Shown here: positions 27,124 through 44,473 of the stretch, in pieces | Layout: every line of letters begins with the position of its first letter | Numbering within the stretch: position 1 is the first letter of the stretch | Source of the DNA: Saccharothrix luteola | GTDB lineage: Bacteria; Actinomycetota; Actinomycetes; Mycobacteriales; Pseudonocardiaceae | Length of the DNA stretch: 64,000 nucleotides | Assembly (NCBI RefSeq): GCF_020859565.1 | Contig: NZ_JAJHUO010000013.1 | Coordinates: forward strand, 132,663 to 196,662 | Direction of reading: 5' to 3' | Made by a program: the position numbers and the translations under genes | Notes under the pieces: model-generated | Told to the model about the DNA's origin: nothing | Seen by the model: only the letters and a program-made list of their open reading frames with translations | The model's database searches: none

Positions 27124-28182
27124 ATGGCTGACCATGTGGTAGACGGAGCCAATGGGTTTGTCGCCTCACATCTGATCGGTGCGCTCGTGGCCCGCGGTGA
27201 CGCGGTGGTCGCCTTGGCGCGCGCCAGTGAGGAAGTGGTCAGGAGGAAGGTCTCCGACGCGCTGGTCACGCTGCACCTGGACCCTTCCCTGGCGAGGAAG
27301 GTGCAGGTCAGGCAGTTCTCGCTGGCCGAAAAGGAGCTGGGGATATCGGCTTCCGACGTGTTCGTCGAACCGTGCACGTATTGGCACAGCGCCGCCCTCA
27401 TCACGTTCTTCCCGCGTCGCGAGGCCGAGTTGCACGCGGTCAACGTGGTCGGCTCCACCAATGTCACCGCCGCGTTCGCCAGGCACGCCAAACCCGGTTC
27501 CCGTTATGTCCACGTCAGCACGGCCTACCAACACGGGACCACGGACGGTAGAGCGCTCGAGCAATGGCCTGAATACGCTCACCCGTCCGAGTTCCGGAAT
27601 GACTACGAACACTCGAAAAGATTGGCCGAAGTAGAGCTCTCTCAGACCGGATTAGCTCACAAGGGTGACGTGCTCGTCGCCCGATTGGGCGTCATGGTCG
27701 GCCACTCCGGGACCGGCCGGGCGCTGACCGACCTCGGGATGTACGACTTCCTCAGGGTCATCGCGCTGTTCGCCAGGCGCACCCCCGGCCAACGCGTCCG
27801 CTTCGTCTGCCACCCGAGGGCCGCTCTGCACCTGACACCGGTCGACGGCACCGTGGACCGGATGCTCGCGCTGGCGAGCGGCCCGCTCGACCGGCCGGTG
27901 CGCCACCTCGTGCCCCCGACCGCGGTGCCGGTGACCGACCTGTTCGCCGCGATCTCCGCGCACCTGCCCGTCGAGCTGGTCGCGGTCACCGCCGCGGAGG
28001 TCGAAGCCGAGCCCTTCAGCAGGTTCGAGGCGATCGTCAACATGCGGTGCAAGTTCACCTCCCCGTACCTGCGCTACGAGTACCAGTTCGAGTCCCACGC
28101 GGACGCCGAGCCGCCACCCGTCACGCCTCGCATCCTCGACCTCCTGATCTCCTGGTACACCCGCGAGGGGCTCCCCGAATGA
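27124..28182 (+). CDS. Thioester reductase-like NAD(P)-binding protein (extended SDR)
   Basis: A 352-residue protein of the NAD_binding_4 / thioester-reductase group. It shows the dinucleotide motif GANGFVASH at residues 8-16, the core strand HVSTAY with Ser 132, and the catalytic pair Tyr 161 / Lys 165 in NDYEHSK. Relatives reduce acyl thioesters to aldehydes or alcohols (NRPS termination domains, carboxylic acid reductases, fatty acyl reductases). It is followed with a 4-base overlap by an acyl-AMP ligase and then an ACP, so the likely substrate is an ACP-bound acyl chain. The order is reversed relative to carboxylic acid reductase, where reductase comes last. It could instead be an epimerase-like enzyme; the operon favours reduction. 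Confidence 0.85.
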   Translation: MADHVVDGANGFVASHLIGALVARGDAVVALARASEEVVRRKVSDALVTLHLDPSLARKVQVRQFSLAEKELGISASDVFVEPCTYWHSAALITFFPRREAELHAVNVVGSTNVTAAFARHAKPGSRYVHVSTAYQHGTTDGRALEQWPEYAHPSEFRNDYEHSKRLAEVELSQTGLAHKGDVLVARLGVMVGHSGTGRALTDLGMYDFLRVIALFARRTPGQRVRFVCHPRAALHLTPVDGTVDRMLALASGPLDRPVRHLVPPTAVPVTDLFAAISAHLPVELVAVTAAEVEAEPFSRFEAIVNMRCKFTSPYLRYEYQFESHADAEPPPVTPRILDLLISWYTREGLPE

Positions 28183-29858
28183 CGGACTTCGTCACCCGCT
28201 TCCGCGCCCGCCCGCGCCCCGACCGGAAGGTCACCTACCTGCCCGAAGGGCGGCCGGCGGCCGAACTGACCCACCTGGAGCTCGACCGGAGGGCCAGGGC
28301 GGTGGCGTCCTGGCTGACCGGGTCCGGGATGGCGGGCAGACCGGTGCTGCTGCTCTACCCCGCCGGACTGGACTTCCTCGTCGCGTTCCTGGGCTGCCTC
28401 TACGCGCGTGCCGTGGCGGTGCCCGCGCCCCTGCCGCTGTCCGGCGCCTCGCGAGTGGACCGGGTGGACCGCCTGCTCGAGGACTCGGGCGCGCGACTGG
28501 TGCTCACCGACGGGGCGCACGTGGCCGCGTTGGACGGGCTGTCGGCGCGGACCTTCGACGAGACGCCCGCCCCCGACTCGTGGGAGCCGTCGGAGGCGGG
28601 CACCGGCACCGTCGCCTACCTCCAGTACACCTCGGGGTCGACCAGCCGGCCGCGCGGCGTCGAGGTCACCCGCGGCAGCCTGACGCACAACCTCGAGCTG
28701 TTCGGGAAGATCGCCGGCGACGTCCCCGTCCGGCGCATCGGCGGCTGGCTGCCGCACCACCACGACATGGGGCTCGTCGGGCTCCAGCTGCAGGCGCTGC
28801 ACGCGGAAGCCGACCTGGTCCTGCTGTCACCGGAGGCGGTGGTGGCCCGGCCGATCCGCTGGCTGCGCGCGATCAGCGACCACCGGGTGGACTGGACCGT
28901 GGCCCCCGACTTCGGCTACGCGTGGGCGACCCGCCGAATCGGTGACGAGGAGCTCGAAGGACTCGACCTGTCGTGCCTGACGATGGCGGTCAGCGGAGCC
29001 GAGCCGATCCGGATCGCCACGCTGGACGCGTTCGCCGAGCGGTTCGCGCCGGTCGGGTTCCGGCGCACCGCGCTCAACCCGGGGTACGGCCTCGCCGAAT
29101 CCACCCTGGTGGTCACGTGCACCTCACGTGGACTCGGACCGACCGTGCGCTCGTTCGCCTCGGCGTCGCTGGCAGCCGGGGTGGCCGTGCCCACGTCGGA
29201 CGCGGACGGCGTGCCGCTGGTCGGGTGCGGCGAGCCGGGCGACATGGAGGTGCGCATCGTCGACCCGGTTGTGGGCGGCGAGGTGGGCGACGGCACGATC
29301 GGGGAGATCAGGGTGGCCGGGCCCAGCCTGGCCGCGGGCTACCACCGCGACCCCGCCGCGACGCGCGCCACGTTCGTCACCGACTCGGCCGTCCGGTGGC
29401 TGCGGACCGGCGACCTGGGCTTCCTCCTCGACGGGCAGCTGTACGTCACCGGGCGGCTGAAGGAACTGATCATCGTCCGCGGCCGGAACCTGTACCCGCA
29501 GGACTTCGAGTTCTCGGCGCGGGAGGCGCACCCGGACGCGGGCCGGGGCGCGGCCTTCGGCGTGCGGGCCGCCGACGGGGAGGAGCAAGTGGTGCTGGTG
29601 CAGGAGTTGCGCCGCGCCTCGCGGGTGGACCCCGCCGAGTTCGCCGACGCCGTGCTCGACGTCGTGACCAAGCAGTTCGGCGTGTCGGTGAGCCTCGTGG
29701 TCGTCCGTCCGAACACGATCCGCCACACCACGAGCGGCAAGGTGCGTCGGGGGCACATGCGCGACCTGTTCCTCGGCGGCGGGCTGTCGGCGCTGCACCG
29801 CGAGCTGTCACCCGCCGTCGCCGCCGTCCTCGCCGTCCCGGAGGTCGACCATGCCTGA
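28179..29858 (+). CDS. Fatty acyl-AMP ligase (FAAL-like)
   Basis: A 559-residue adenylate-forming enzyme. The ATP loop YTSGSTSRPRG, the FAAL-typical LPHHHDMGL, the adenine/aryl motif NPGYGLAEST, the TGDLG hinge and a C-terminal TTSGKVRRG lysine are visible. FAALs activate free fatty acids as adenylates and pass them to an ACP rather than to CoA. The ACP gene starts inside its last codons, which supports that transfer. The ATG at 28179 overlaps the reductase stop, giving strict translational coupling through the operon. Confidence 0.92.
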   Translation: MTDFVTRFRARPRPDRKVTYLPEGRPAAELTHLELDRRARAVASWLTGSGMAGRPVLLLYPAGLDFLVAFLGCLYARAVAVPAPLPLSGASRVDRVDRLLEDSGARLVLTDGAHVAALDGLSARTFDETPAPDSWEPSEAGTGTVAYLQYTSGSTSRPRGVEVTRGSLTHNLELFGKIAGDVPVRRIGGWLPHHHDMGLVGLQLQALHAEADLVLLSPEAVVARPIRWLRAISDHRVDWTVAPDFGYAWATRRIGDEELEGLDLSCLTMAVSGAEPIRIATLDAFAERFAPVGFRRTALNPGYGLAESTLVVTCTSRGLGPTVRSFASASLAAGVAVPTSDADGVPLVGCGEPGDMEVRIVDPVVGGEVGDGTIGEIRVAGPSLAAGYHRDPAATRATFVTDSAVRWLRTGDLGFLLDGQLYVTGRLKELIIVRGRNLYPQDFEFSAREAHPDAGRGAAFGVRAADGEEQVVLVQELRRASRVDPAEFADAVLDVVTKQFGVSVSLVVVRPNTIRHTTSGKVRRGHMRDLFLGGGLSALHRELSPAVAAVLAVPEVDHA

Positions 29859-30096
29859 CGAGTCGTTGAGGGCGTGGCTCGTCGACGCCGTGGCGGGATA
29901 CGTGGGTCTGCCGCCCTCGCGGGTCGGCACCGGGGTGGCGCTGCGCTCGCTCGGCTTCGACTCCGTGCACGCCATGGGTCTGTGCGTCGACATCGAAGAG
30001 CGCTGGGGCGTTCTCGTGGAACCCACGCTGGCCTGGGACTTCCCGACCATCGACACCATCGTGGCGCACCTCGGCCCGCAGATCGACCGGACGTGA
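29851..30096 (+). CDS. Stand-alone acyl carrier protein
   Basis: An 81-residue ACP with the phosphopantetheine site at Ser 38 in LGFDSVHAMGL and the usual four-helix pattern. It overlaps the FAAL gene by 8 bases and is most likely its acyl acceptor. Together, the ligase, ACP and reductase could convert a fatty acid into an aldehyde or alcohol, or deliver an acyl group elsewhere. Confidence 0.94.
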   Translation: MPDESLRAWLVDAVAGYVGLPPSRVGTGVALRSLGFDSVHAMGLCVDIEERWGVLVEPTLAWDFPTIDTIVAHLGPQIDRT

Positions 30097-31081: not shown

Positions 31082-31191
31082 CACGACGACCACTGTGCCA
31101 GGCGGGGGCTTGCCCGCGTGTCCTGGATCACCTACCGTCGAGTAAAGGTGAAGACGTTTCGCGTATGGGTGAACCGGGTCGGGGAGTGCGG

Positions 31192-33198
31192 ATGCGGGTC
31201 TCGCGACGGTCGTTGGCGGCAACGGCGCTGGTCGGCGCGCTGGTCGTGGTCGGACTGCCGGTCGCGGACGCCGCGCCGCAGCCGTACCTGGTGGGTCGCG
31301 GCATCTCCGACGTCACCGGTCCGGCCGCCGAGAACGGGATGATGGGCTACTCGGCGTTCGACCAGAAGACCACCGGCATCCACCAGCGGCAGCGCTCACG
31401 CGCGTACGTCGTGGTCGACCAGGCCACAGGCAAGCGCGTCGCGTACGTCAACGCGGACCTGGCGATGATCTTCCGGGCGGTGCAGGAGGCGGTGCTGGCC
31501 AAGCTCCAGGCCCGGTACGGCTCGCTCTACACCCGCGAGAACGTGCTGCTGTCCGCCACCCACACGCACGCCGGGCCCGGCGGCTACTCGCACAACCTCG
31601 CCTACAACCTCTCGATCCTGGGCATGCAGCCGCAGACGCTGGCCGCGATCACCGACGGCATCACGGAGTCGGTCGTGCGCGCGCACGAAGACCTCAAGCC
31701 CGGCGAGCTGACCCTGGGCCGCGGCGAGCTGACCGACGCCAGCGTGAACCGCTCCCGGGTCGCGTTCGAGCGCAACCCCGACAAGGGCCACTTCCCCCGG
31801 GCGATCGACCCCGCCATGACGGTGCTGCGGTTCCGGCAGAACGGCGCGGACGTCGGCGCGATCAGCTGGTTCGCCACCCACAACACGTCGATGACCAACA
31901 AGAACACGCTGATCAGCCCGGACAACAAGGGTTACGCGTCCTACCAGTGGGAGCACGACGACCGGGGCGTGCGGTACCTGGAGGACCGGCCCGGGTTCGT
32001 CGCCGCGTTCTCCAACACGAACGCCGGCGACATGTCGCCGAACCTCAACCTGCGCCCCGGCTCCGGTCCGACCGAGGACGAGGTGGAGAACACCCGGATC
32101 ATCGGCGAGCGGCAGAACCGCAAGGCGCAGCAGGTGTTCGCGGGCCCGCAGACACCGGTCACCGGAGCGGTGGACTACCGGATGCGGTTCGTCGACATGG
32201 CCGCGGTCGCCGTCGACGGCCGGTACACCACCGACGGGCGACCCGGCACCACGTGCCCCGGCGTCGTCGGCGCGTCCACCATGGCGGGCAGCGTCGAGGA
32301 CGGCCCGGCGATCCCCGGCTTCCGCGAGGGCATGACCAGCCCGTGGAAGGCGCTGTTCGAGCCCTTGGACGTCGAGGTCCCGCAGTGGCTGCGGGACTGC
32401 CAGTACCCGAAGGCGTCGCTGGTGCCGACCGGCCTGGTGCAGGCCACGCCGAACGTGCTGCCGCTTCAGGTGGTGAAGATCGGGCCGCTGCACCTGGTCG
32501 CCGTTCCGGGCGAGGTGACGATCGTGGCGGGCCTGCGGATCCGGCGCGCGGTGGCCGCCGAGGCGGGCGTGCCGCTGGAGGACGTGCTGGTGCAGGGCTA
32601 CGCCAACGACTACAGCCAGTACGTGACCACGCCGGAGGAGTACGACCTCCAGCAGTACGAGGGCGGCTCGACGCTGTTCGGCCGCAACACCCTGCCCGCC
32701 TACCAGCAGGAGTTCGCCAAGCTGGCCGCGTCCCTGCGCGCCGGCACACCCCTCGCGCCCGGCGCCACGCCGACCAAGCCACCGTTCACCGAGCTCAACC
32801 TCCAGACCGGGGTGGTGTTCGACGACAAGGCGCCGTGGCACTCCTTCGGCCAGGTGCTCACCGAGCCGGCCGCCGGCTACGCCCGCGGCCAGACCGCCAC
32901 GGCGGTCTTCGTCACCGGCCACCCGAAGAACAACCTCCGCCGCAACGGCACGTTCCTGGAGGTGCAGCGCCTGGTCGACGGCGCCTGGACCAGGCACGCG
33001 GACGACGGCGACTGGTCCACCCGCTACCGCTGGCAGCGCGACGGCGTGGCCAACTCGAACGCCACGGTCACCTGGACGATCCCGGCCGACACGCCCGCGG
33101 GCACCTACCGCATCGTCCACCACGGCGACTGGAAGAGCGGCTGGACGGGCGCGATCACCCCGTTCACCGGCGCAACGAGGACGTTCACCGTCGGCTAA
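31192..33198 (+). CDS. Secreted neutral/alkaline ceramidase
   Basis: A 668-residue exported hydrolase that cleaves the amide bond of ceramide to sphingosine and fatty acid. The ATG at 31192 (GGGGAG five bases upstream) opens a signal peptide (MRVSRRSLAATAL, ending VADAAP). The zinc and catalytic motifs of the family are present: THTHAGPGGYS, the serine region NAGDMSPN, and an Ig-like C-terminal domain ending FTGATRTFTVG. Actinomycetes rarely make sphingolipids, so the enzyme probably acts on external lipid. It ends 4 bases inside the convergent gene. Confidence 0.95.
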   Translation: MRVSRRSLAATALVGALVVVGLPVADAAPQPYLVGRGISDVTGPAAENGMMGYSAFDQKTTGIHQRQRSRAYVVVDQATGKRVAYVNADLAMIFRAVQEAVLAKLQARYGSLYTRENVLLSATHTHAGPGGYSHNLAYNLSILGMQPQTLAAITDGITESVVRAHEDLKPGELTLGRGELTDASVNRSRVAFERNPDKGHFPRAIDPAMTVLRFRQNGADVGAISWFATHNTSMTNKNTLISPDNKGYASYQWEHDDRGVRYLEDRPGFVAAFSNTNAGDMSPNLNLRPGSGPTEDEVENTRIIGERQNRKAQQVFAGPQTPVTGAVDYRMRFVDMAAVAVDGRYTTDGRPGTTCPGVVGASTMAGSVEDGPAIPGFREGMTSPWKALFEPLDVEVPQWLRDCQYPKASLVPTGLVQATPNVLPLQVVKIGPLHLVAVPGEVTIVAGLRIRRAVAAEAGVPLEDVLVQGYANDYSQYVTTPEEYDLQQYEGGSTLFGRNTLPAYQQEFAKLAASLRAGTPLAPGATPTKPPFTELNLQTGVVFDDKAPWHSFGQVLTEPAAGYARGQTATAVFVTGHPKNNLRRNGTFLEVQRLVDGAWTRHADDGDWSTRYRWQRDGVANSNATVTWTIPADTPAGTYRIVHHGDWKSGWTGAITPFTGATRTFTVG

Positions 33199-33632
33199 CC
33201 CTCGCGGTCCAGGGGGCCCCACGACGTGGCGGCGTGCTCCTCGACCAGGCGCTCGCACTCGGCGAGCGCCTCGTCCGTGATCCACCCGATCGGGTGAAGG
33301 CACTCGACCAGGGGCTCGTTGTCCGGGCCCCGACCGACCTCGGTGCCTTCCAAAATCCACGGTCGCGTGCCCGGCCCGCGGCGTTCCCGCAGGTGGCGGT
33401 AGTCGTGCAGGCGACGGGCCACCCAGAGCCGCAGTGGTCTGTCGCCCCACCAGGGTTCGACCGTCAGCGCGTTGGCGGACAGGCCGGGCAGCCGCACGCC
33501 GCTCAACCCGTCCCGGCTGCACCGGTCGCTGTCCGCCTCCGGACCGCGCGACCAGCGCACGTACAGCTCACGGGCGGGCGCGCGGTCCTCGACCAAGGCG
33601 ACCAGGTCGGCGAGATCGGCGAAGGTGCGCAT
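33195..33632 (-). CDS. Small conserved-type protein (resembles DUF6098)
   Basis: A 145-residue soluble protein without signal or membrane segments. The phrase VRLPGLSANALTVEPWW followed by a Trp/His/Arg-rich region resembles what I remember of DUF6098, a family of unknown function; I cannot verify this. It faces the ceramidase gene tail to tail. Confidence 0.75.
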   Translation of the reverse strand: MRTFADLADLVALVEDRAPARELYVRWSRGPEADSDRCSRDGLSGVRLPGLSANALTVEPWWGDRPLRLWVARRLHDYRHLRERRGPGTRPWILEGTEVGRGPDNEPLVECLHPIGWITDEALAECERLVEEHAATSWGPLDREG

Positions 33633-33693
33633 GCGCCGGGGTTACCGCAGGAACGGAGGTTCGAACACGGAACGCCCGGGTATGAGCTAGAGC

Positions 33694-35202
33694 ATGACGG
33701 AAGCGACCACGACCGCCCGCCACTCGCTGTGGTCCGAGGCGATACCGCACGGCCGGTTCCCCGTGCTCACCGGTGAGACGGCGGTGGACGTGGCGGTGGT
33801 CGGCGGTGGCATCACCGGCATCACCACCGCGTTGCTGCTCAAGCGCGCGGGCCTGCGGGTCGTGGTGGTCGAAGCCGACCGGGTCGGCAGCGGCGTCAGC
33901 GGCAACAACACCGCCAAGGTGACCGCCCTCCAGTCCACTGTGTACTCGACCATCGAGCGCAAGCACAACGCCGAGGCGGCGGCCGACTACGCCTCCGGCA
34001 ACGCCGCCGCCGTCGAGCGGGTCGCCGCGCTGGTGTCCGAGGTGGGCGTCGACTGCGACCTGCGCCGGATGCCCGCCTACACCTTCGCGTTCGACGACCG
34101 GGAACTCGACGCGGTCGAGGAGGAGGCCTCCGCCGCCGCGAAGGCGGGCCTGCCGGTGTCACGCGACCGCGGCGAGCAGATGGGCGTGCCGTTCCCGATC
34201 GCGGGCGCGGTGCGGCTGGACGACCAGCTGGCGATCCACCCGGTCAAGTACGTGCGCGGCCTGGCGGAGGCGGTGGACGGCGACGGGTCGCGGGTCTACG
34301 AGGCGAGCCGGGTGCTGCGCATCGAGGACGGAACGCCGTGCCGCGTCCACACCGACGAGGGCACCGTCGTCGCCGAGCGCGTGGTGATCGCCACGCACTA
34401 CCCGATCCTGGACCGCGGCCTGTACTTCGCGCGGCTGGAGCCCGTGCGCTCCTACTGCGTCGCGGTCCGGTTGGCGTCGGGCACGCCGCCGACGGGCCTG
34501 GGCATCAGCGCGGGCAGCACCACGTGGTCGCTGGCGAGGTCCGGCGACCTGCTGATCGTCGCGGGGCGCGGCCACGCCGCTGGCTCGTCGCCGGGCGAGC
34601 CGTACGACGAGCTGACGAAGTTCGCCGCCGAGCACTGGGACATCGCCGAGGTCACCCACCGCTGGTCCGCGCAGGACCCGACGTCCTACGACAACCTGCC
34701 GATGATCGGCCCCTACCTGCCGGGCTCGTCCACGTTGTACGGCGCGACCGGGTTCATGAAGTGGGGCCTGAGCAACGGCACCATGGCCGCGGAACTGCTG
34801 ACCGACCTGATCGTGGGCCGGGAGAACCCGCTGGCGGCGCGGTTCAGCCCGCACCGGCTGACCCTGGGCGCCACGCCGAAGCTGGCGATGATGAACGCGA
34901 AGGTGGCCGTCGACCTGGTCGGCGACCGGCTGAAGTCCGCCGAGGTCGACTCGGTCGCGGACGTGCCGGCAGGGCAGGCGCGGGTGGTGCGTGACGGCAC
35001 GGGCAAGGCGGGGGTGTACCGCGACGAGGCGGGCGGCGTGCACGGCGTGTCCCTGCGCTGCACGCACTTGGGCTGCCTGGTGCGGTTCAACCCCGCCGAA
35101 CGCAGCTGGGACTGCCCGTGCCACGGGTCGCGGTTCGACGTGGACGGCGCCGTGCTGGAAGGCCCGGCGACCAAGCCGCTGCCGCGCCGCGATCCCGCCT
35201 GA
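33694..35202 (+). CDS. FAD-dependent oxidoreductase with C-terminal Rieske domain
   Basis: A 502-residue fusion. The DAO-type FAD domain starts with [12 protein letters not shown] near residue 33 and covers about 370 residues. A Rieske [2Fe-2S] domain sits at the end, with ligands in CTHLGC (near 455) and CPCHGS (near 474). Such fusions pass electrons from an amine or acid substrate through the Rieske centre; the substrate is unknown. The stop overlaps the start of the next gene (TGATG), coupling it to the carboxylate-amine ligase. Confidence 0.92.
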
Positions 35203-36275
35203 TGACGGTGGGCGTCGAGGAGGAGTTCCTCCTCGTGGACCCGGCGACGCGTCGTCCCTCGGCGCGTGCGGCGGATGTGCTGGCACGCGTGCGGGACCTG
35301 CCGCCGGGCGCGCACGTCCACCTCGAGCTCAGCGCCGTGCAGGTGGAGTTCGCCAGCGGTGTGTGCGGCGGCCTGGACGAGCTGCGCGACCAGCTGACGG
35401 CCGGTCGGCGTGCGTTGGCCGAGGCCGCTCACGCCGAGGGGTTGTGGCTGGTCGCGGCGGGTGCACCACCGTTGGCCGACCCGCGACCGGCGTTGAGCGC
35501 GGGGGAGAGGTTCGAGCGGGTCGGGTCGATGTACGGCGCCCAAGTGGACGGCTACCAGTGCTGCGGCTGTCACGTGCACGTCGGCGTGCCGGACCGGGAG
35601 ACGGCCGTGCACGTGGTCAACCACCTGCGGCGATGGCTGCCGACGCTGCTGGCGCTCGGCGGCAACTCGCCGTTCGACCGGGACCGCGACACCGGCTACG
35701 CGAGCTGGCGGATGATGGACCAGGCGGCGTTCCCAGGCTCGGGCGTGCCGCCGTTCTGCCGCACGGCCGCGGAGCAGGACGCGCGCGTGGCCCGGCTGGT
35801 GGACTGCGGCGCGCTGGTGGACGCGAGCCAGACGTTCTGGCTGGCCAGGCCGTCACCGCGCTACCCGACCGTCGAGGTCCGGGCCGCCGACACCGCGGCC
35901 ACCGTGGACGACGCCCTGCTCCAAGCGGGCCTGACCAGGGCGCTCGTCGACACGGCGCGCACCGCCGGAGCCGCGCCCGAGCTGGACGACCAGGTGCTGG
36001 CGGCGGCCGTGTGGTCGGCGGCCCGGCACGGGCTGTCCGGTCCGGGGGTCGACCCGGTCACCGCACGTCAGGTGCCCGCCGTCGAGCTCGTGGAGGCGTT
36101 GCTGGCGCACGTGTCCGAAGCGCTGGGCGACGACCGCGAGCTGGTCCACGCGCTGGTGCGCGACGTGCTCGACCGGGGAACGGGCGCGCAGCGGCAGCTG
36201 AGGGCGGGATCACCGGAAGCCGCCGTGGAGCTGCTCGCGTGCACCCCGGCGGGAACGGGTAGTCCACGGTCATGA
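35202..36275 (+). CDS. Carboxylate-amine ligase of the GCS2 / YbdK-EgtA type
   Basis: A 357-residue ATP-dependent ligase of the glutamate-cysteine ligase 2 group. It begins at the family signature [24 protein letters not shown] and CHVHVGVPD are further family landmarks. Known relatives join glutamate to cysteine (EgtA, GshA type) or act on unknown carboxylate-amine pairs (YbdK). The ATG at 35202 overlaps the upstream stop, and its own 3' end overlaps the diiron gene by 4 bases. The operon context with a diiron oxidase and Fe-S protein suggests a specialised small-molecule pathway. Confidence 0.9.
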   Translation: MTVGVEEEFLLVDPATRRPSARAADVLARVRDLPPGAHVHLELSAVQVEFASGVCGGLDELRDQLTAGRRALAEAAHAEGLWLVAAGAPPLADPRPALSAGERFERVGSMYGAQVDGYQCCGCHVHVGVPDRETAVHVVNHLRRWLPTLLALGGNSPFDRDRDTGYASWRMMDQAAFPGSGVPPFCRTAAEQDARVARLVDCGALVDASQTFWLARPSPRYPTVEVRAADTAATVDDALLQAGLTRALVDTARTAGAAPELDDQVLAAAVWSAARHGLSGPGVDPVTARQVPAVELVEALLAHVSEALGDDRELVHALVRDVLDRGTGAQRQLRAGSPEAAVELLACTPAGTGSPRS

Positions 36276-37276
36276 CCACTGTGGACCCTGCTGTCGACCG
36301 AGCGGTGCTGCCCGCGCCGCGCGGCCCCCTGTCCGCCGCCGTCCTGGACGCCCTGCGCGGCGACCCGCCCGCGGCCGGCCTGCCGTCGCACGTGTCGGCC
36401 GAACCCTACGGCGAAGACCTGCACCTGGCCCTGCACGTGTGCTACGAGCTGCACTACCAGGGCTTCGCGGACGTCTCGGACTCCTGGGAGTGGGATCCAG
36501 GGCTGTTGGGCTTCCGCGCTGCGCTGGAACAGGTGTTCCTGAACGCGTTGCGCGCCGACGTGCCCGGCGGCGCGGACATCGGCGGTGTGCTGGACGAACT
36601 GCTGGTGGAGCCGGTCGACGGCGTCGGCGTGAGCCACTTCCTCAAGGACGAGGGGGAGTGGTGGCACATGCGCGAGTACATGGCGTTGCGCTCGATCTAC
36701 CACCTCAAGGAGGCGGACCCGCACGCGTGGGTGATCCCGCGCCTGCGCGGTGCGGCGAAGGCGGCGCTGGTGGCCGTCGAGTTCGACGAGTTCGGCGGCG
36801 GACGCGGCGACCGCATGCACTCGCGGCTGTTCGCCGACCTGCTCGCGGGCGCCGGGCTGGACAACGGCTACCTCCGGTACCTGGAGCACGCTCCCGCGGT
36901 GATGCTGGCGACGGTCAACCTGATGTCGTTGTGCGGACTGCACCGGTCGTTGCGCGGCGCGCTGGTGGGGCACTTCGCCGCCGCCGAGATCACCACCGCG
37001 CCCAGCGCCACGCGCATGGCGAAGGCGTTGGAACGGCTGGACGCGCACCCCGACTGCGTGGAGTTCTTCACCGAGCACATCGAGGCGGACGCGGTGCACG
37101 AGCAGGTGATGCGGCGGGACGTGATCGGCGACCTGCTGGCCCGTGAGCCGGAGCTGACCGAATCCGTCGTGTTCGGCGTGCAGGCCACGGAACTGCTCGA
37201 ACAACGGCTCGGCGACCACCTCCTCCGCGCGTGGGAAGAGGGGCAGACGGCGTTGCGCCTGCCCCTGCCCCTCTGA
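36272..37276 (+). CDS. Haem-oxygenase-like diiron protein (iron-containing redox enzyme family)
   Basis: A 334-residue all-helical protein of the haem-oxygenase-like diiron oxidase type. Candidate metal ligands recur on separate helices: E59/H61 in CYELHYQG, E147/H151 in KEADPH, E170/E173 in VEFDEFGGG, H183, E239, and E268/H269/D273/H276 in TEHIEADAVH. Characterised members oxidise C-H, C-C or N-H bonds (UndA, SznF-like chemistry). The reaction here is unknown. It overlaps the ligase gene by 4 bases and converges on the CDGSH gene. Confidence 0.87.
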   Translation: MTTVDPAVDRAVLPAPRGPLSAAVLDALRGDPPAAGLPSHVSAEPYGEDLHLALHVCYELHYQGFADVSDSWEWDPGLLGFRAALEQVFLNALRADVPGGADIGGVLDELLVEPVDGVGVSHFLKDEGEWWHMREYMALRSIYHLKEADPHAWVIPRLRGAAKAALVAVEFDEFGGGRGDRMHSRLFADLLAGAGLDNGYLRYLEHAPAVMLATVNLMSLCGLHRSLRGALVGHFAAAEITTAPSATRMAKALERLDAHPDCVEFFTEHIEADAVHEQVMRRDVIGDLLAREPELTESVVFGVQATELLEQRLGDHLLRAWEEGQTALRLPLPL

Positions 37277-37286
37277 CGGACATCGG

Positions 37287-37478
37287 TCAACGTCGTTTGC
37301 GGTGGCTCGTGTCGCACAGCGGGTAACGCTTGCTGCGGCGGCACGCGCACACCGCGACGACGAACCGGTCCGAGCACACCACCTCGCCGTCCTCCAGCCG
37401 CAGTTCGACCGGCCCCTCCACCAGGATCGGCCCACCGGGCACGACGGTCACCACCCGGGCGTCACGCTGCGTCGGCAC
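37287..37478 (-). CDS. CDGSH-type [2Fe-2S] protein
   Basis: A 63-residue mitoNEET-like protein with the motif C-x-C-x2-S-x3-P-x-C-D-x2-H at Cys 44, Cys 46, Cys 55 and His 59. The 3Cys-1His cluster usually transfers electrons or clusters. Its start lies inside the end of the methyltransferase gene, so the two are coupled. It is likely the redox partner of the diiron or Rieske protein next door; that is inference. Confidence 0.92.
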   Translation of the reverse strand: MPTQRDARVVTVVPGGPILVEGPVELRLEDGEVVCSDRFVVAVCACRRSKRYPLCDTSHRKRR

Positions 37479-38109
37479 GGATCACCACCAGTTCCTCGTG
37501 CTCCTGCTCGTGGTCGATGAGCCCGCGCCGGGCCAACCACTCCGCCCGCTCGCGCATCACCGGCCCGAACGGGACCGTGCGGCGGGCCACCACCGACGCC
37601 TTCAGGCCACCGCCGCGCAACTGCCTCAGGGTGACGTCCGGGTCGCACAGCCCGGAGTGCACCACCAGCCCCATGCCCTTGTCCGCCAACAACAACGGCA
37701 TCACCGCGCACAACCGGTCGAGCAGGGAACGGCCGTTCGGCCCCGCGTCCCAGGCCCGCGCGGGCCCTCGGTCCGGCACGCCGTCGCTGGGCACGTAAGG
37801 CGGGTTGGCCGTGATGACGTCGAACTTGCCGTGCCCCACCAGGTCGCCGAAGTCACCGCGCCGCACGCGCACCGACATGCCGCGCACCCGGGCGTTGGCC
37901 CAGGCGGCGAGGAGGGCGCGTCTGCTCACGTCCACCACGGTGATCTCACGCGCTCCCGCCAATCCCGAGGCGACCGCCAGCGCGCCGGTGCCGGTGCACA
38001 CGTCGAGCACCCGGCCGCCACTCGGTATGCCGGCCTCCTCCAGCGCCTCGGCCATCAACCACGTGTCTTCCTGGGGCCGGTAGACGCCCGGCGGCCTCAA
38101 CAACCACAT
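37462..38109 (-). CDS. HemK-like / MTQ2-type SAM-dependent methyltransferase
   Basis: A 215-residue class I methyltransferase. The SAM loop is VLDVCTGTGAL, and the catalytic NPPY motif of glutamine/adenine N-methyltransferases follows (TANPPYVPSDG). The N-terminal release-factor-binding domain of PrmC is missing, as in HemK2-type enzymes. It could methylate a glutamine or a small molecule. It overlaps the CDGSH gene by 17 bases on the same strand. Confidence 0.9.
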   Translation of the reverse strand: MWLLRPPGVYRPQEDTWLMAEALEEAGIPSGGRVLDVCTGTGALAVASGLAGAREITVVDVSRRALLAAWANARVRGMSVRVRRGDFGDLVGHGKFDVITANPPYVPSDGVPDRGPARAWDAGPNGRSLLDRLCAVMPLLLADKGMGLVVHSGLCDPDVTLRQLRGGGLKASVVARRTVPFGPVMRERAEWLARRGLIDHEQEHEELVVIRADAA

Positions 38110-39033: not shown

Positions 39034-39564
39034 GTGGTTCTCCGGGCTGGTGATCCCGTTGTCCGCGGATCGGGGTCCGGAGGTGAGCACGTCATCGAAC
39101 CGTCGTCGCGCTTGGAGGCGTTCGGGAACCAGCTCGTGCAGGCGCACATCGCGCTGCGCGAACGGCTGGAGGCGTTGAGCGACGGCTTGGCCGACGGGGC
39201 GCGCGTCACGGACCTGTGGTCGCACTGCCTCTCGTTCTGCGCCGCGCTGGAGCGGCACCACACTGCCGAGGACGACGGCGTGTTCCCCGTGCTGGCCCGC
39301 GAGCACCCGGAGCTGCGGCCGGTGCTCGACGAGCTGGGCCGTGATCACCGGATCGTGTCGGACGCCCTGGCCGCGCTGGGGGAGTTGGGCGACGCCGAGC
39401 CGGAGGTGCTGCAACGCGAGCTGGCCGGCGTGGCGGCGTTGATGGAAACGCACTTCACGTACGAAGAGCGCAAGATCGCGGACGTGCTGTCGGCGTTGAC
39501 CGGGCGGCTCGGTGAGACCGACGCGGAGCTGATCACGCGCGCCACCACGGGGTACGACGCTTAA
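39034..39564 (+). CDS. Hemerythrin-like diiron protein
   Basis: A 176-residue helical protein with hemerythrin ligands: LERHHTAEDDGVFP, RDHRIV, and ETHFTYEERKI. Bacterial members bind oxygen, nitric oxide or iron, or act in stress sensing. The start is uncertain: the GTG at 39034 has GGAGAAGG ahead, but a shorter start within the first 30 residues is possible because a second good ribosome site lies near 39080. Confidence 0.85.
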   Translation: MVLRAGDPVVRGSGSGGEHVIEPSSRLEAFGNQLVQAHIALRERLEALSDGLADGARVTDLWSHCLSFCAALERHHTAEDDGVFPVLAREHPELRPVLDELGRDHRIVSDALAALGELGDAEPEVLQRELAGVAALMETHFTYEERKIADVLSALTGRLGETDAELITRATTGYDA

Positions 39565-41916: not shown

Positions 41917-42931
41917 GGGGCCGGGCCCCGCTCGGCTGTAGGGTTCGCGGCATCATCTGCTTGGCCAGCGGCGGTGCGGTGAGCAGGCGACGGCGTAGCC
42001 GAACTGGCGGCATCCTGCCCGTCAATCGTCGCTGATCTTGTGCATGGAGCGGACTCCAACACCCCCGCCTGCTCACCCGTCGAGAGCTCGACATCGTCGG
42101 TCCGGTGGCGAAAGCCCGGGTGTGGACGTCGCCGAGCCCGAACCTCGACGCCGACCACCGCACGGTCTCCCGTTTCGCCTCGGACGCGGCAGACGCGTCC
42201 GAGGCGGCCGGGCTGTGGGTCGAACGCCGCCGGCAACCAGTCGCCGGCCATGCCCGCCGGCGTTCCGCCGCGGGTGCCGAGCCCGAAGCGCCGGGGCTCG
42301 GCGGACGCGGAGAATCCCACCTCGCCACCGGGCACGGCGGGAAGGTCGGGCAGGGGCACCACCGCACTTCCCGCCGCACCTGCCCGCCCGCTCAAGCCAC
42401 CGGACTCGGACCCCGTCGGCCCGTTCGCCATCCCTGGCCGCAGGAGTAGGGACCTCCGCGTCGTCCCCCGCCTATACCGAAGGCCGCCGTCACCCAGGTG
42501 GTGGGTCCAGTCACTCCTCGTAGGTCCTTTGTGGACCACGTTGCGACGTCACCCTGGCGCTCCTTCACCGTGCGTAGTCGGTCGCCGGTCGCCGTTCGGG
42601 CCCCGGCGGATCGTCCGCCGGCCAGCCGGTGCGAGCGCTCGTCCGTGCGGTGAGGTGCCTGCCGTGACCGCCGTCTTGCGGGTTCGTCACGGGCTGCGTC
42701 TGACATTTCTCTTGACCAATCGGAAAGTCCGGTGAGTGTCACTCGAACTCGTGAATTCGGACGGTGGTCGGATCACCGACAACCACCCCTGCCACGCGTC
42801 CGATGACCATCCGGATGAACTACCGCGGAAGATCGCAACCTGCCCGAGTGGTGTTCGGTTCAACTACTGCCACTTCCTCTGGGTGACTGTTAGCTTGCCA
42901 TCAGCGATTACGTCTGGTGAGGAGGCAAGGG
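41917..42931. other. Gene-poor stretch of about 1 kb with decayed coding traces
   Basis: No intact gene is recognisable. Roughly 42075-42230 has almost pure G/C third positions in one forward frame (LTRRELDIVGPVAKARVW and on), as a real gene would. The frame then loses its pattern and I cannot assign a family. The remainder lacks coding character, and its last ~250 bases are AT-richer and promoter-like. It is most likely the debris of a lost gene followed by a regulatory region. Confidence 0.5.
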
Positions 42932-43051
42932 GTGAAGCGCTTGTTCGGCGTGGTGCTCAGTGCATTCGCCGCCGCTGTACTGCTGCCCGTGAGCCCGGCG
43001 GCGCAGGCGGCCGCCGACGTGCCCGTGCACGGCACGTCCTTCAAGGCCTGA
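42932..43051 (+). CDS. Signal-peptide-only ORF (39 aa), probably a truncated secreted protein
   Basis: GTG at 42932 follows a strong GAGGAGG and opens a textbook signal peptide (VKRLFGVVLSAFAAAVLL, then PAAQAAAD). It stops after only about 12 mature residues. This looks like the 5' remnant of a longer exported protein whose remainder has been deleted, or a very small exported peptide. Confidence 0.5.
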   Translation: MKRLFGVVLSAFAAAVLLPVSPAAQAAADVPVHGTSFKA

Positions 43052-43093
43052 CCGCGGTGGTGGTCAACCCCAACCGATGTGGAGAGGGCGCAC

Positions 43094-43841
43094 GTGTCCT
43101 TCGATCTGGTCGTGGTCGGAGTCGGCTGCGTAGGGCTGCCGCCGGCGGCGGCGACCGCTGCGGGTACGGCGGTGGCGGGTACGAAACCGATCCGGCCGTG
43201 ATCGCGGGCGCCGACACCGTGGTGATCTGCGTGCCCACCGGTCTGGCGCCTGACGGGCGACCCCCGATCCTGGAGCGGCACGGCCACGTGGCCGGTGAGG
43301 ACTTCCCGCTCGGCTGCTCGCCGGAACGCATCGACCCCGGCAACCGCACCTTCGGCATCCGCACCACGCCCGAGGTGATCAGCGGGCACACCCCGTTGTG
43401 CACCAAGCACTGCGCGACCTTCTCCTGCCGGGTCGTCGACTCCGTCGTGGTGGCTCGCGGCACCCGCGAGGCCGAGATGGTGAAACTGCTCGAGAACACC
43501 TGCGGGTACGCGAAACCGTTCGGCTTCCAGCCGTTCACCCCCGGACCGGGCGTGGGCGGTCACTGCATCCCCGACGACCCCGCTACCTGCTGGACAAGGC
43601 CCGTCGTGAGGGCGCGCGGCTGGGCGTGGCGGAGGCGGCCCGGCGGGTCGACCCCGTCGCGGGGGAGGTGCCCGCGCTCGGGTCGTCCGCCGACGACCTG
43701 GAGTCAGCGCTGCGCGCGAGCGACGCGACCGTGCTGCTCGTCGCGCACAGCGGTTACAAACTCGGCCACCTGGCCAGGAACTCCCGGCGCTTGCTGGACG
43801 TCACGGGCAGCGTGCCCGGAGGGGAGGTCATGCGCCATTGA
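43094..43841 (+). pseudogene. Decayed nucleotide-sugar dehydrogenase (UDP-ManNAc/GlcNAc dehydrogenase type)
   Basis: Fragments of a UDP-sugar 6-dehydrogenase appear in order but in several frames and with internal deletions. The NAD motif start VSFDLVVVGVGCVGLP stops early. YETDPAVIAGADTVVICVPT, SPERIDPGNRTFGIRTTPEV and VKLLENT follow. PFTPGPGVGGHCIPDDP is the sugar-binding motif, then a C-terminal piece VLLVAHSGYKLGHL. The catalytic Cys motif itself (GGHCIP) survives, but the frame breaks on both sides. Intact relatives make uronic-acid nucleotide sugars. It is a clear relic, and it links this region to aminosugar or uronic acid metabolism. Confidence 0.85.
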
Positions 43842-43936
43842 CATCCCCCTGACGGGGGAGCAGGTCTGCGGACCGGCTCAGCACGTCCAGGTTCGCCGAG
43901 AACCACCTCATCATTCTTTAGGAGTGTCCGAAGGTC

Positions 43937-44473
43937 ATGTCCACGACGGTCAAGGGCGATCGGCTCAAGAAGCGCTTCGAGAAGTGGGACGTCAACGGCA
44001 ACGGCCGGATCGGGAAATCCGATTACGAGGCCGAGGCGCGTCGCATCATCGAGGCGTTCGGCGAGGACGCGTCGTCACCGCAGGCGCGAGCGCTCACCGA
44101 CTCCTACATCTCCATGTACGAGTTCTTGGCGACCAAGGCCGGTGTGGGCGCGGACGGCTCGATGACGGAGGAGCAGTTCCTCAACGTGGTCGAGGCGCAG
44201 GTGTTCGCGGAGGGTGACGCCGGGTTCAACCGCGTGGTCCGGCCGACGGTCGCGGCCATGGTGGGCCTGTGCGACACCGACGGCGACGGCGAGGTGGGCC
44301 CGCCGGAGTTCCACAAGTGGCTGGAAGCGATCGGGGTGGACCCGTCGGCGGCGGTCGAGGCCTTCCGGACCATCGACTCCGACGGCAGCGGGACGTTGAC
44401 CGTGGACGAGCTGGTCGCCGCGGTGCGCGCCTACCACTTCGGCACCCTGGACGTGCCGCTCCTCGGTCGCTGA
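43937..44473 (+). CDS. Calerythrin-like EF-hand calcium-binding protein (copy 3)
   Basis: A 178-residue protein. Loops 1, 3 and 4 are good (DVNGNGRIGKSD, DTDGDGEVGPPE, DSDGSGTLTVDE); loop 2 (GVGADGSMTEEQ) has lost ligands. The pattern of degenerate hands differs from copy 1, so the copies are not recent duplicates. It lies intact between the dehydrogenase relic and the sugar-oxidoreductase operon and ends at a strong hairpin. Confidence 0.93.
   Translation: MSTTVKGDRLKKRFEKWDVNGNGRIGKSDYEAEARRIIEAFGEDASSPQARALTDSYISMYEFLATKAGVGADGSMTEEQFLNVVEAQVFAEGDAGFNRVVRPTVAAMVGLCDTDGDGEVGPPEFHKWLEAIGVDPSAAVEAFRTIDSDGSGTLTVDELVAAVRAYHFGTLDVPLLGR

Follow-up and report, generated by a model that had tools for sequence, protein, structure and literature searches.

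What do five closely packed genes for a flavin enzyme, a ligase, a diiron protein, an iron-sulfur protein and a methyltransferase accomplish together in an actinomycete? The question is posed by a locus of Saccharothrix luteola (NCBI RefSeq assembly GCF_020859565.1, contig NZ_JAJHUO010000013.1) contained in a stretch of 64,000 nucleotides, referred to here as the window. Three genes are on the forward strand: A (33694..35202), for a flavin adenine dinucleotide (FAD)-dependent oxidoreductase of the DAO fold with a C-terminal Rieske [2Fe-2S] domain; B (35202..36275), for a GCS2/YbdK-type carboxylate-amine ligase; and C (36272..37276), for a predicted heme-oxygenase-like diiron protein. They face two genes on the reverse strand, D (37287..37478), which starts with GTG and encodes a CDGSH-type [2Fe-2S] protein with the motif CACRRSKRYPLCDTSH, and E (37462..38109), which encodes a HemK2/MTQ2-like methyltransferase with an NPPY motif. 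The core of the module is formed by C and D, usually together with E; B is found in half of the loci and A is an accessory member. The module points to an undescribed stress-protection pathway in actinobacteria. That it is a general-stress oxidation module of the SigB/SigF type yielding a small protective molecule is, in our judgment, an evenly balanced proposition.

The preliminary description of this DNA, made from the sequence alone, had recognized the five genes, their overlaps and their convergence over ten bases, all of which is borne out by the coordinates and by Pfam and NCBIfam. A and B overlap by 1 nt, B and C by 4 nt and D and E by 17 nt, and the stop codons of the converging C and D genes are 10 bp apart. 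The family assignments come from Pfam for A to D (PF01266 DAO and PF00355 Rieske in A; PF04107, 1e-43, in B; PF14518, 1.4e-58, in C; PF09360, 8.6e-16, in D) and from NCBIfam for B (NF010041 and TIGR02050) and E (TIGR00537, 97.7 bits with a cut-off of 87); no NCBIfam model matched C or D. All five genes are intact, as are the motifs that we take to be their functional signatures: the Rieske CxH...CxxH of A, GCHVHVG of B, the seven ligand positions of C, CxC...CDTSH of D and NPPY of E. Each of these protein families is already known and the genes are named singly by NCBI. The genome around the window measures 10.3 Mb, and the named loci closest by C belong to Saccharothrix species.

The grouping of the genes is not due to chance. 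It was followed through 80 named loci, the best 80 of 484 confirmed matches to C and hence near relatives of C, which carry 20 genus labels and include one short contig (L028). Within 2.5 kb of C, D was found in 80/80 loci, E in 73/80, B in 40/80 and A in 8/80; A was found within 5.5 kb in 15/80. No E was found near C in L053, L057, L067, L069, L077 and L082. The preliminary description, which spoke of a compact cluster of five, thus holds for C and D with E as their usual companion, not for A and B as constant members. Five further neighbors from the window were searched for in the same loci; four occurred in 0/80 and the DUF6098 gene in 2/80. When the open reading frames around C were clustered without preconception (81 loci), only C, E, D and B occurred in at least 13 genus labels, and the next family reached 7. 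The CDGSH motif was present within 2.5 kb of C in 79/80 named loci, D of the remaining one (L064) being detected by tblastn only, and was absent from 1.1 Mb of the more distant flanks of these loci. It was likewise absent from 34 control loci of other PF14518 proteins (0/34), by which the idea that a CDGSH protein accompanies every PF14518 protein was rejected.

The linkage persists through a variety of arrangements, of which 18 were counted at the named loci; the commonest are C> E> D>, in Streptomyces and Nocardia, and B> C> <D <E, mostly in Pseudonocardiaceae. In 40/41 loci with B within 5.5 kb, B directly precedes C on its strand, with a gap of -26 to 95 nt that depends on the choice of start codon, as does the overlap of E and D in 57/71 loci in which E precedes D in the same orientation. 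In a quick tree, 50 of whose 129 inner branches are weak, the orientation of D relative to C accounts for six changes and the presence of D for five. One genome (G008) has two copies of C, one beside a ligase gene with no D or E found (L010/L237) and one beside D and E (L016/L238). The version of the module on pSCAT of Streptantibioticus cattleyicolor comprises C, D and E.

A draw of 296 genomes across the phylum, a less biased sample than the named 80, contained C (E<=1e-30) in 50 genomes. D stood beside C in 32 of the 51 loci fetched from them when a hidden Markov model (HMM) was used, including one at a distance of 2.7 kb (L153), and in 30/51 by the motif within 2.5 kb. Among 10 of the 120 predicted neighbors of C in loci without D that were scanned, no common redox partner was seen; three were major facilitator superfamily (MFS) transporters. 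E (E<=1e-40) occurred in 22/296 genomes, 21 of which also contained C (Fisher p 2e-17, kinship ignored). In 5 of these 21 genomes E is separated from C by over 150 kb or lies on a different contig, and since it co-occurs with C even when detached, the tie between E and C is more than physical. Apart from this detachment, the scattering in close relatives that would have counted against the preliminary description was not encountered, C, D and E lying together in most of them. That the genes form a set, as first proposed, is upheld by the conserved linkage of C, D, E and B relative to the controls, and we consider the linkage well supported.

The fold and the predicted metal-binding residues of C place it among the heme-oxygenase-like diiron oxidases (HDOs). 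The AlphaFold2 model of C (pLDDT 94.4) is a heme-oxygenase-like helical bundle whose closest solved folds are HrmI, SznF and RohS, all N-oxygenases; Foldseek gave E 2.8e-10 to HrmI and 8e-9 to SznF, and a profile of C compared with solved structures gave E 1.5e-26 to RohS, 6e-20 to SznF and 1e-14 to HrmI. The residues E147, E173, H183, E239, H269, D273 and H276 align with the residues that we take to be the ligands of SznF and with their counterparts in RohS, so that a set of three histidines and four carboxylates (3H/4C) of the SznF type is predicted. All seven are kept in 81/81 near rows and in 51/51 phylum-wide rows, except that the last three could be read in 50/51, one row being truncated. 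Y62 is similarly constant (81/81 near, 50/51 phylum-wide). The 3H/4C set, estimated for about a quarter of all HDOs, was observed first in SznF (PMC13108848). By analogy with its nearest folds, C may N-oxygenate an amine or a guanidine. The residue next to ligand H269 is E268 in distant loci with D and mostly T or V in those without D. A divergent group of C proteins (L165-L167, L170, L172, L176, L180-L185), with no CDGSH protein nearby, reads DTHVVADA where most CDGSH-linked C proteins read DEHVEADA or a close variant.

Diiron oxygenases need electrons, and D is a candidate for their delivery. By reading and by Pfam, D fits the pattern C-x-C-x2-[STA]-x3-[PF]-x-C-[DEN]-x-[ST]-H. Bacterial CDGSH proteins are little understood. 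The CDGSH protein mitoNEET transfers electrons from FMNH2, the reduced flavin mononucleotide (FMN) made by a flavin reductase, to O2 (PMC9490426). Since D accompanies the near relatives of C and mitoNEET accepts electrons from FMNH2, a path from a flavin via D to C is proposed. The flavin enzyme may differ between genera. In A, the Rieske residues C456/H458/C474/H477 are identical in 16/16 aligned rows. FMN reductase genes were found at most 2.5 kb from C in 13/80 named loci (Nocardia, Streptomyces, Actinocorallia; L084 and L086 are partial matches, and L098, 5 kb away, is left out), in 2/51 phylum-wide loci and in 1/34 control loci; the 15 loci with A contained none. The earlier suggestion that oxidation at a diiron center is fed by [2Fe-2S] proteins is consistent with the predicted ligand set of C and with its neighbors.

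In E, residues N102, P103, P104 and Y105 are found in 73 or 74 of 74 rows, and the class I SAM fold, the NPPY motif and the score all place E with HemK2/MTQ2. Its best solved match is human N6AMT1. N6AMT1/HemK2 methylates glutamine in a protein, and no release factor eRF1 is known in bacteria; the substrate of E should therefore differ from that of HemK2/N6AMT1. Methylation of Q278 of C, two residues past the ligand H276, was considered and rejected as a signature, Q278 being invariant in 81 near rows and not tracking E in 37 distant ones. A series of genes on a Kitasatospora plasmid (NZ_CP108290, 5914-9972; L225) comprises a YbdK ligase, a dimethylargininase, C, the CDGSH protein and HemK2. 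The dimethylargininase gives a hint, and only a hint, of an arginine-derived substrate; tblastn found no such gene in the 80 named, 51 phylum-wide and 34 control loci.

B scores 340 bits with NF010041 (cut-off 332) and 223 bits with TIGR02050 (cut-off 176) and has no match to TIGR03444 (EgtA) at E 0.001. TIGR03444 matches another gene of the genome at E 2e-79, on a different contig; this match is a fragment and falls under the cut-off since only the matched stretch was scored. B was therefore rejected as the ergothioneine ligase and mycothiol synthesis is not known to use a ligase of the GCS2 type, which leaves little of the concern, voiced at the outset, that the ligase might be ergothioneine or mycothiol housekeeping. 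Ligation is not common to all versions of the locus, no B having been found within 5.5 kb of C in 35 of 73 loci that have E nearby. The genome (G000) has two GCS2 genes that score identically, on its contigs C39 and C45, either through duplication or as an assembly artefact (listed contamination 8.84).

When is the module expressed? Of four plasmid records with annotation, all but that of a Curtobacterium plasmid have genes for SigB/SigF, STAS, SpoIIE, CsbD, universal-stress or gas-vesicle proteins near the module, which led to a test for stress promoters. A match of the SigB/SigF type is located directly upstream of A (33658..33683, forward strand; GGTT, a 16-nt spacer and GGGTAT), with 10 nt between its end and the ATG. 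It is the single match to GGTT-N15-17-GGGTAY in the window, where 0.14 are expected and 12/100 shuffled sequences have one. The consensus given for Streptomyces coelicolor SigB is GNTT or GNNT followed, about 12-15 nt after the -35 hexamer, by GGGTAY (PMC8346170); written as GGTTCG-N14-GGGTAT, the putative promoter of the window fits this spacing. The full motif recurs in four of five same-genus relatives with A and the fifth reads GGGTAG, so the -35 and -10 elements are kept as the spacer drifts. Upstream of the operon with C, GGGTAY was found in 40/81 loci (17/19 in Streptomyces) compared with 61 of 847 control genes, predicted genes with an upstream gap of at least 60 bp (72 of all 1127 predicted), and the full motif in 23/81 compared with 22/847. 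Permuted hexamers gave 14, 4, 7 and 5 of 81. For the E-D pair, no promoter of this type was found in the window. The flanks lend weak support to a stress context: SigB/SigF-like genes occur in 9/80 named, 6/51 phylum-wide and 1/34 control loci, the control flanks being shorter, and SpoIIE-like genes in 16/80, 5/51 and 1/34, with flanks of differing length; a family check covers one of the 15 flank sigma genes, that of L078. SCO1086-1089 was tried as the S. coelicolor version of the module and rejected on account of annotations that do not fit. Stress control by a SigB/SigF-type factor, as predicted from the promoter sequences, appears fairly supported. Taken together, promoters and stress contexts, which the preliminary description had not remarked upon, suggest general stress protection more than a specialized-metabolite cluster of the classical kind.

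From the computed gene set, linkage, ligand positions, fold and promoter motif we infer the stress induction, the electron path, the substrate, the order of the steps and the product of the following sequence of events. Osmotic, drying or oxidative stress would elicit expression of the A-B-C operon and of the facing E-D pair. D, as the dedicated electron donor of C, would be charged by a flavin enzyme, the FAD/Rieske protein A in this genus and the FMN reductase encoded beside C in Nocardia and Streptomyces. With these electrons, C would reduce O2 at its 3H/4C diiron site and oxygenate a nitrogen in an amino-acid-like or guanidine-like substrate. E belongs to a family of methyltransferases for the side-chain amide of glutamine and might place an N-methyl group on the product or on an intermediate; in loci that have B, this ligase would add glutamate to an amine. 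Speculatively, a gamma-glutamyl amide formed by B would resemble the side chain of glutamine, the methylation target of HemK enzymes. The end result would be a small protective molecule. Stated in full, as a conserved actinobacterial stress pathway of new redox architecture under SigB/SigF control, in which the CDGSH protein is the obligate donor of a 3H/4C HDO and, with a HemK2-like methyltransferase, a new N-oxygenated and N-methylated protective metabolite arises, the scheme is possible rather than probable.

Several observations weigh against the proposed stress module. Other HDOs of the same fold carry out C-C cleavage, desaturation or rearrangement, so that N-oxygenation by C is a guess from the nearest folds. 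D was not found near C by HMM in 19/51 phylum-wide loci, FMN reductase genes are rare there, and the mutual exclusion of A and FMN reductase is not significant (Fisher p 0.11). As to the promoter, GGGTAY was not found ahead of the C-containing operon in 41/81 loci, and its frequency is low in Prauserella (0/2), Actinopolymorpha (0/2), Amycolatopsis (4/12), Nocardia (3/11) and Lentzea (3/10). Phylum-wide it lies within 220 bp in 6/14 near and 8/37 distant loci, counts that stand without a matched control. The reverse-strand control is also raised (26/81 compared with 62/847), partly because GGGTACCC is a palindrome, and since the 81 loci are related, the p-values of promoter enrichment are too small. 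Nor is the module among the promoters of SigB homologues of S. coelicolor in the passages of the study examined (PMC8346170).

Stress-type promoters would also suit an explanation without any new metabolite, in which C, as a terminal oxidase or peroxidase with D as its donor, clears O2 or H2O2 from cells under stress or desiccation, and E and B act elsewhere, for example in protein repair or modification. A precedent is DtpC, an HDO of Acinetobacter baumannii that is co-transcribed with the catalase gene katE, limits damage by peroxide and desiccation and needs its HDO ligand residues (PMC13232832). The transfer of electrons to O2 by mitoNEET and a flavin reductase fits such a role, as do loci with C and D and neither E nor B in the vicinity examined (such as L069 and L077, and the Curtobacterium plasmid). 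A pure scavenger, however, would not need E, which is almost confined to genomes with C. The authors of the DtpC study raise the idea of a small protective molecule themselves, and the residue numbers quoted for DtpC give a spacing after the second histidine other than that in C. We regard direct removal of oxidants as rather unlikely.

The enzyme types also fit the specialized metabolism envisaged in the preliminary description, with B joining glutamate to an amine or thiol, C oxidizing it and E methylating it; the compound would be antibiotic- or siderophore-like. Most of the HDOs studied make natural products (PMC13108848) and one is encoded in the azaserine cluster (PMC10445470); B, where it occurs within 5.5 kb, is almost always directly upstream of C, and loose clusters of transporter genes accompany C, MFS in 11/81 loci (7 genus labels) and ATP-binding cassette in 20/81, mostly Streptomyces. 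A distribution of C as broad as 50/296 genomes across the phylum, the promoter type, the stress-gene neighbors and the lack of a peptide or polyketide synthetase among the annotated representatives of the ten most recurrent side clusters argue for the contrary and make such a compound quite unlikely. Finally, C or D could itself be the substrate, in a system for protein modification or cofactor formation with E methylating a glutamine in either protein, or with C cleaving a tyrosine of its own in the way that CADD makes p-aminobenzoate. The frequent overlap of E with D, the nearly invariant Y62 of C and the protein-glutamine methylation by N6AMT1/HemK2, the best solved relative of E, can be read in this way; Q278 of C, which does not track E across the 37 distant relatives, and nearest folds that are small-molecule N-oxygenases, with CADD ranking lower, render it improbable.

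Upstream of the module (31165-33632), a neutral/alkaline ceramidase gene adjoins the DUF6098 gene, which adjoins A in all five same-genus relatives with A. Downstream (39034-39564) is a gene for a hemerythrin-domain protein, shared by three same-genus relatives (L229-L231) and near C in 0/80 named loci. Farther away are a thioester-reductase-like gene (PF07993) followed by acyl-AMP-ligase-like and small carrier-protein-like genes, the last two assigned by eye (27124-30096), and pieces resembling UDP-glucose dehydrogenase in shifting frames, a candidate seen by eye (42736-44217).

How does the module compare with known systems? Its locus couples one HDO with one bacterial CDGSH protein across actinobacteria, with a methyltransferase that rarely occurs without the oxidase, and raises hypotheses about the reductant of these diiron enzymes, the role of bacterial CDGSH proteins and a stress metabolite in actinobacteria. 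A search of the literature for a CDGSH/HDO pairing, in sources covered in part, yielded no description of the module. The novelty lies in an HDO system that has a CDGSH partner to itself, a HemK2-like methyltransferase dependent on C and, often, a promoter of the general-stress type. D shares the motif of three cysteines and one histidine (CxC...CDxSH) with mitoNEET/CISD but is a bacterial protein of 63 residues with CDTSH for CDGSH, genetically tied to one diiron enzyme. E shares NPPY, the W..G..GR stretch and a TIGR00537 score over the cut-off with HemK2/N6AMT1 (MTQ2) and differs in being almost confined to genomes with C. B belongs with the YbdK/GCS2 ligases by NF010041 and TIGR02050, unlike EgtA, whose counterpart is a separate gene on another contig. 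C shares its fold with SznF, RohS and HrmI and the seven ligand positions with SznF and RohS, at 15-21% identity in structural alignments; unlike them it is a stand-alone protein with a linked CDGSH partner, a HemK2-like methyltransferase and a general-stress-type promoter, and it lacks the cupin domain of SznF. HrmI is of the 3H/3C type, as given in the review that puts the HDOs with an assigned function at roughly a dozen among more than 10,000 (PMC13108848), whereas C is predicted to be 3H/4C. With DtpC, compared by role and not by sequence kinship, C has in common that it is an HDO; DtpC is tied to stress survival, requires its metal ligands and is, according to its authors, the only HDO to have been linked to oxidative stress or desiccation (PMC13232832). 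DtpC differs in being encoded in a two-gene operon with the catalase KatE, and the main text of that report makes no mention of CDGSH. If the proposed reading is true, C would be the second HDO, after DtpC, to be linked to oxidative stress or desiccation, and a far more widespread one.

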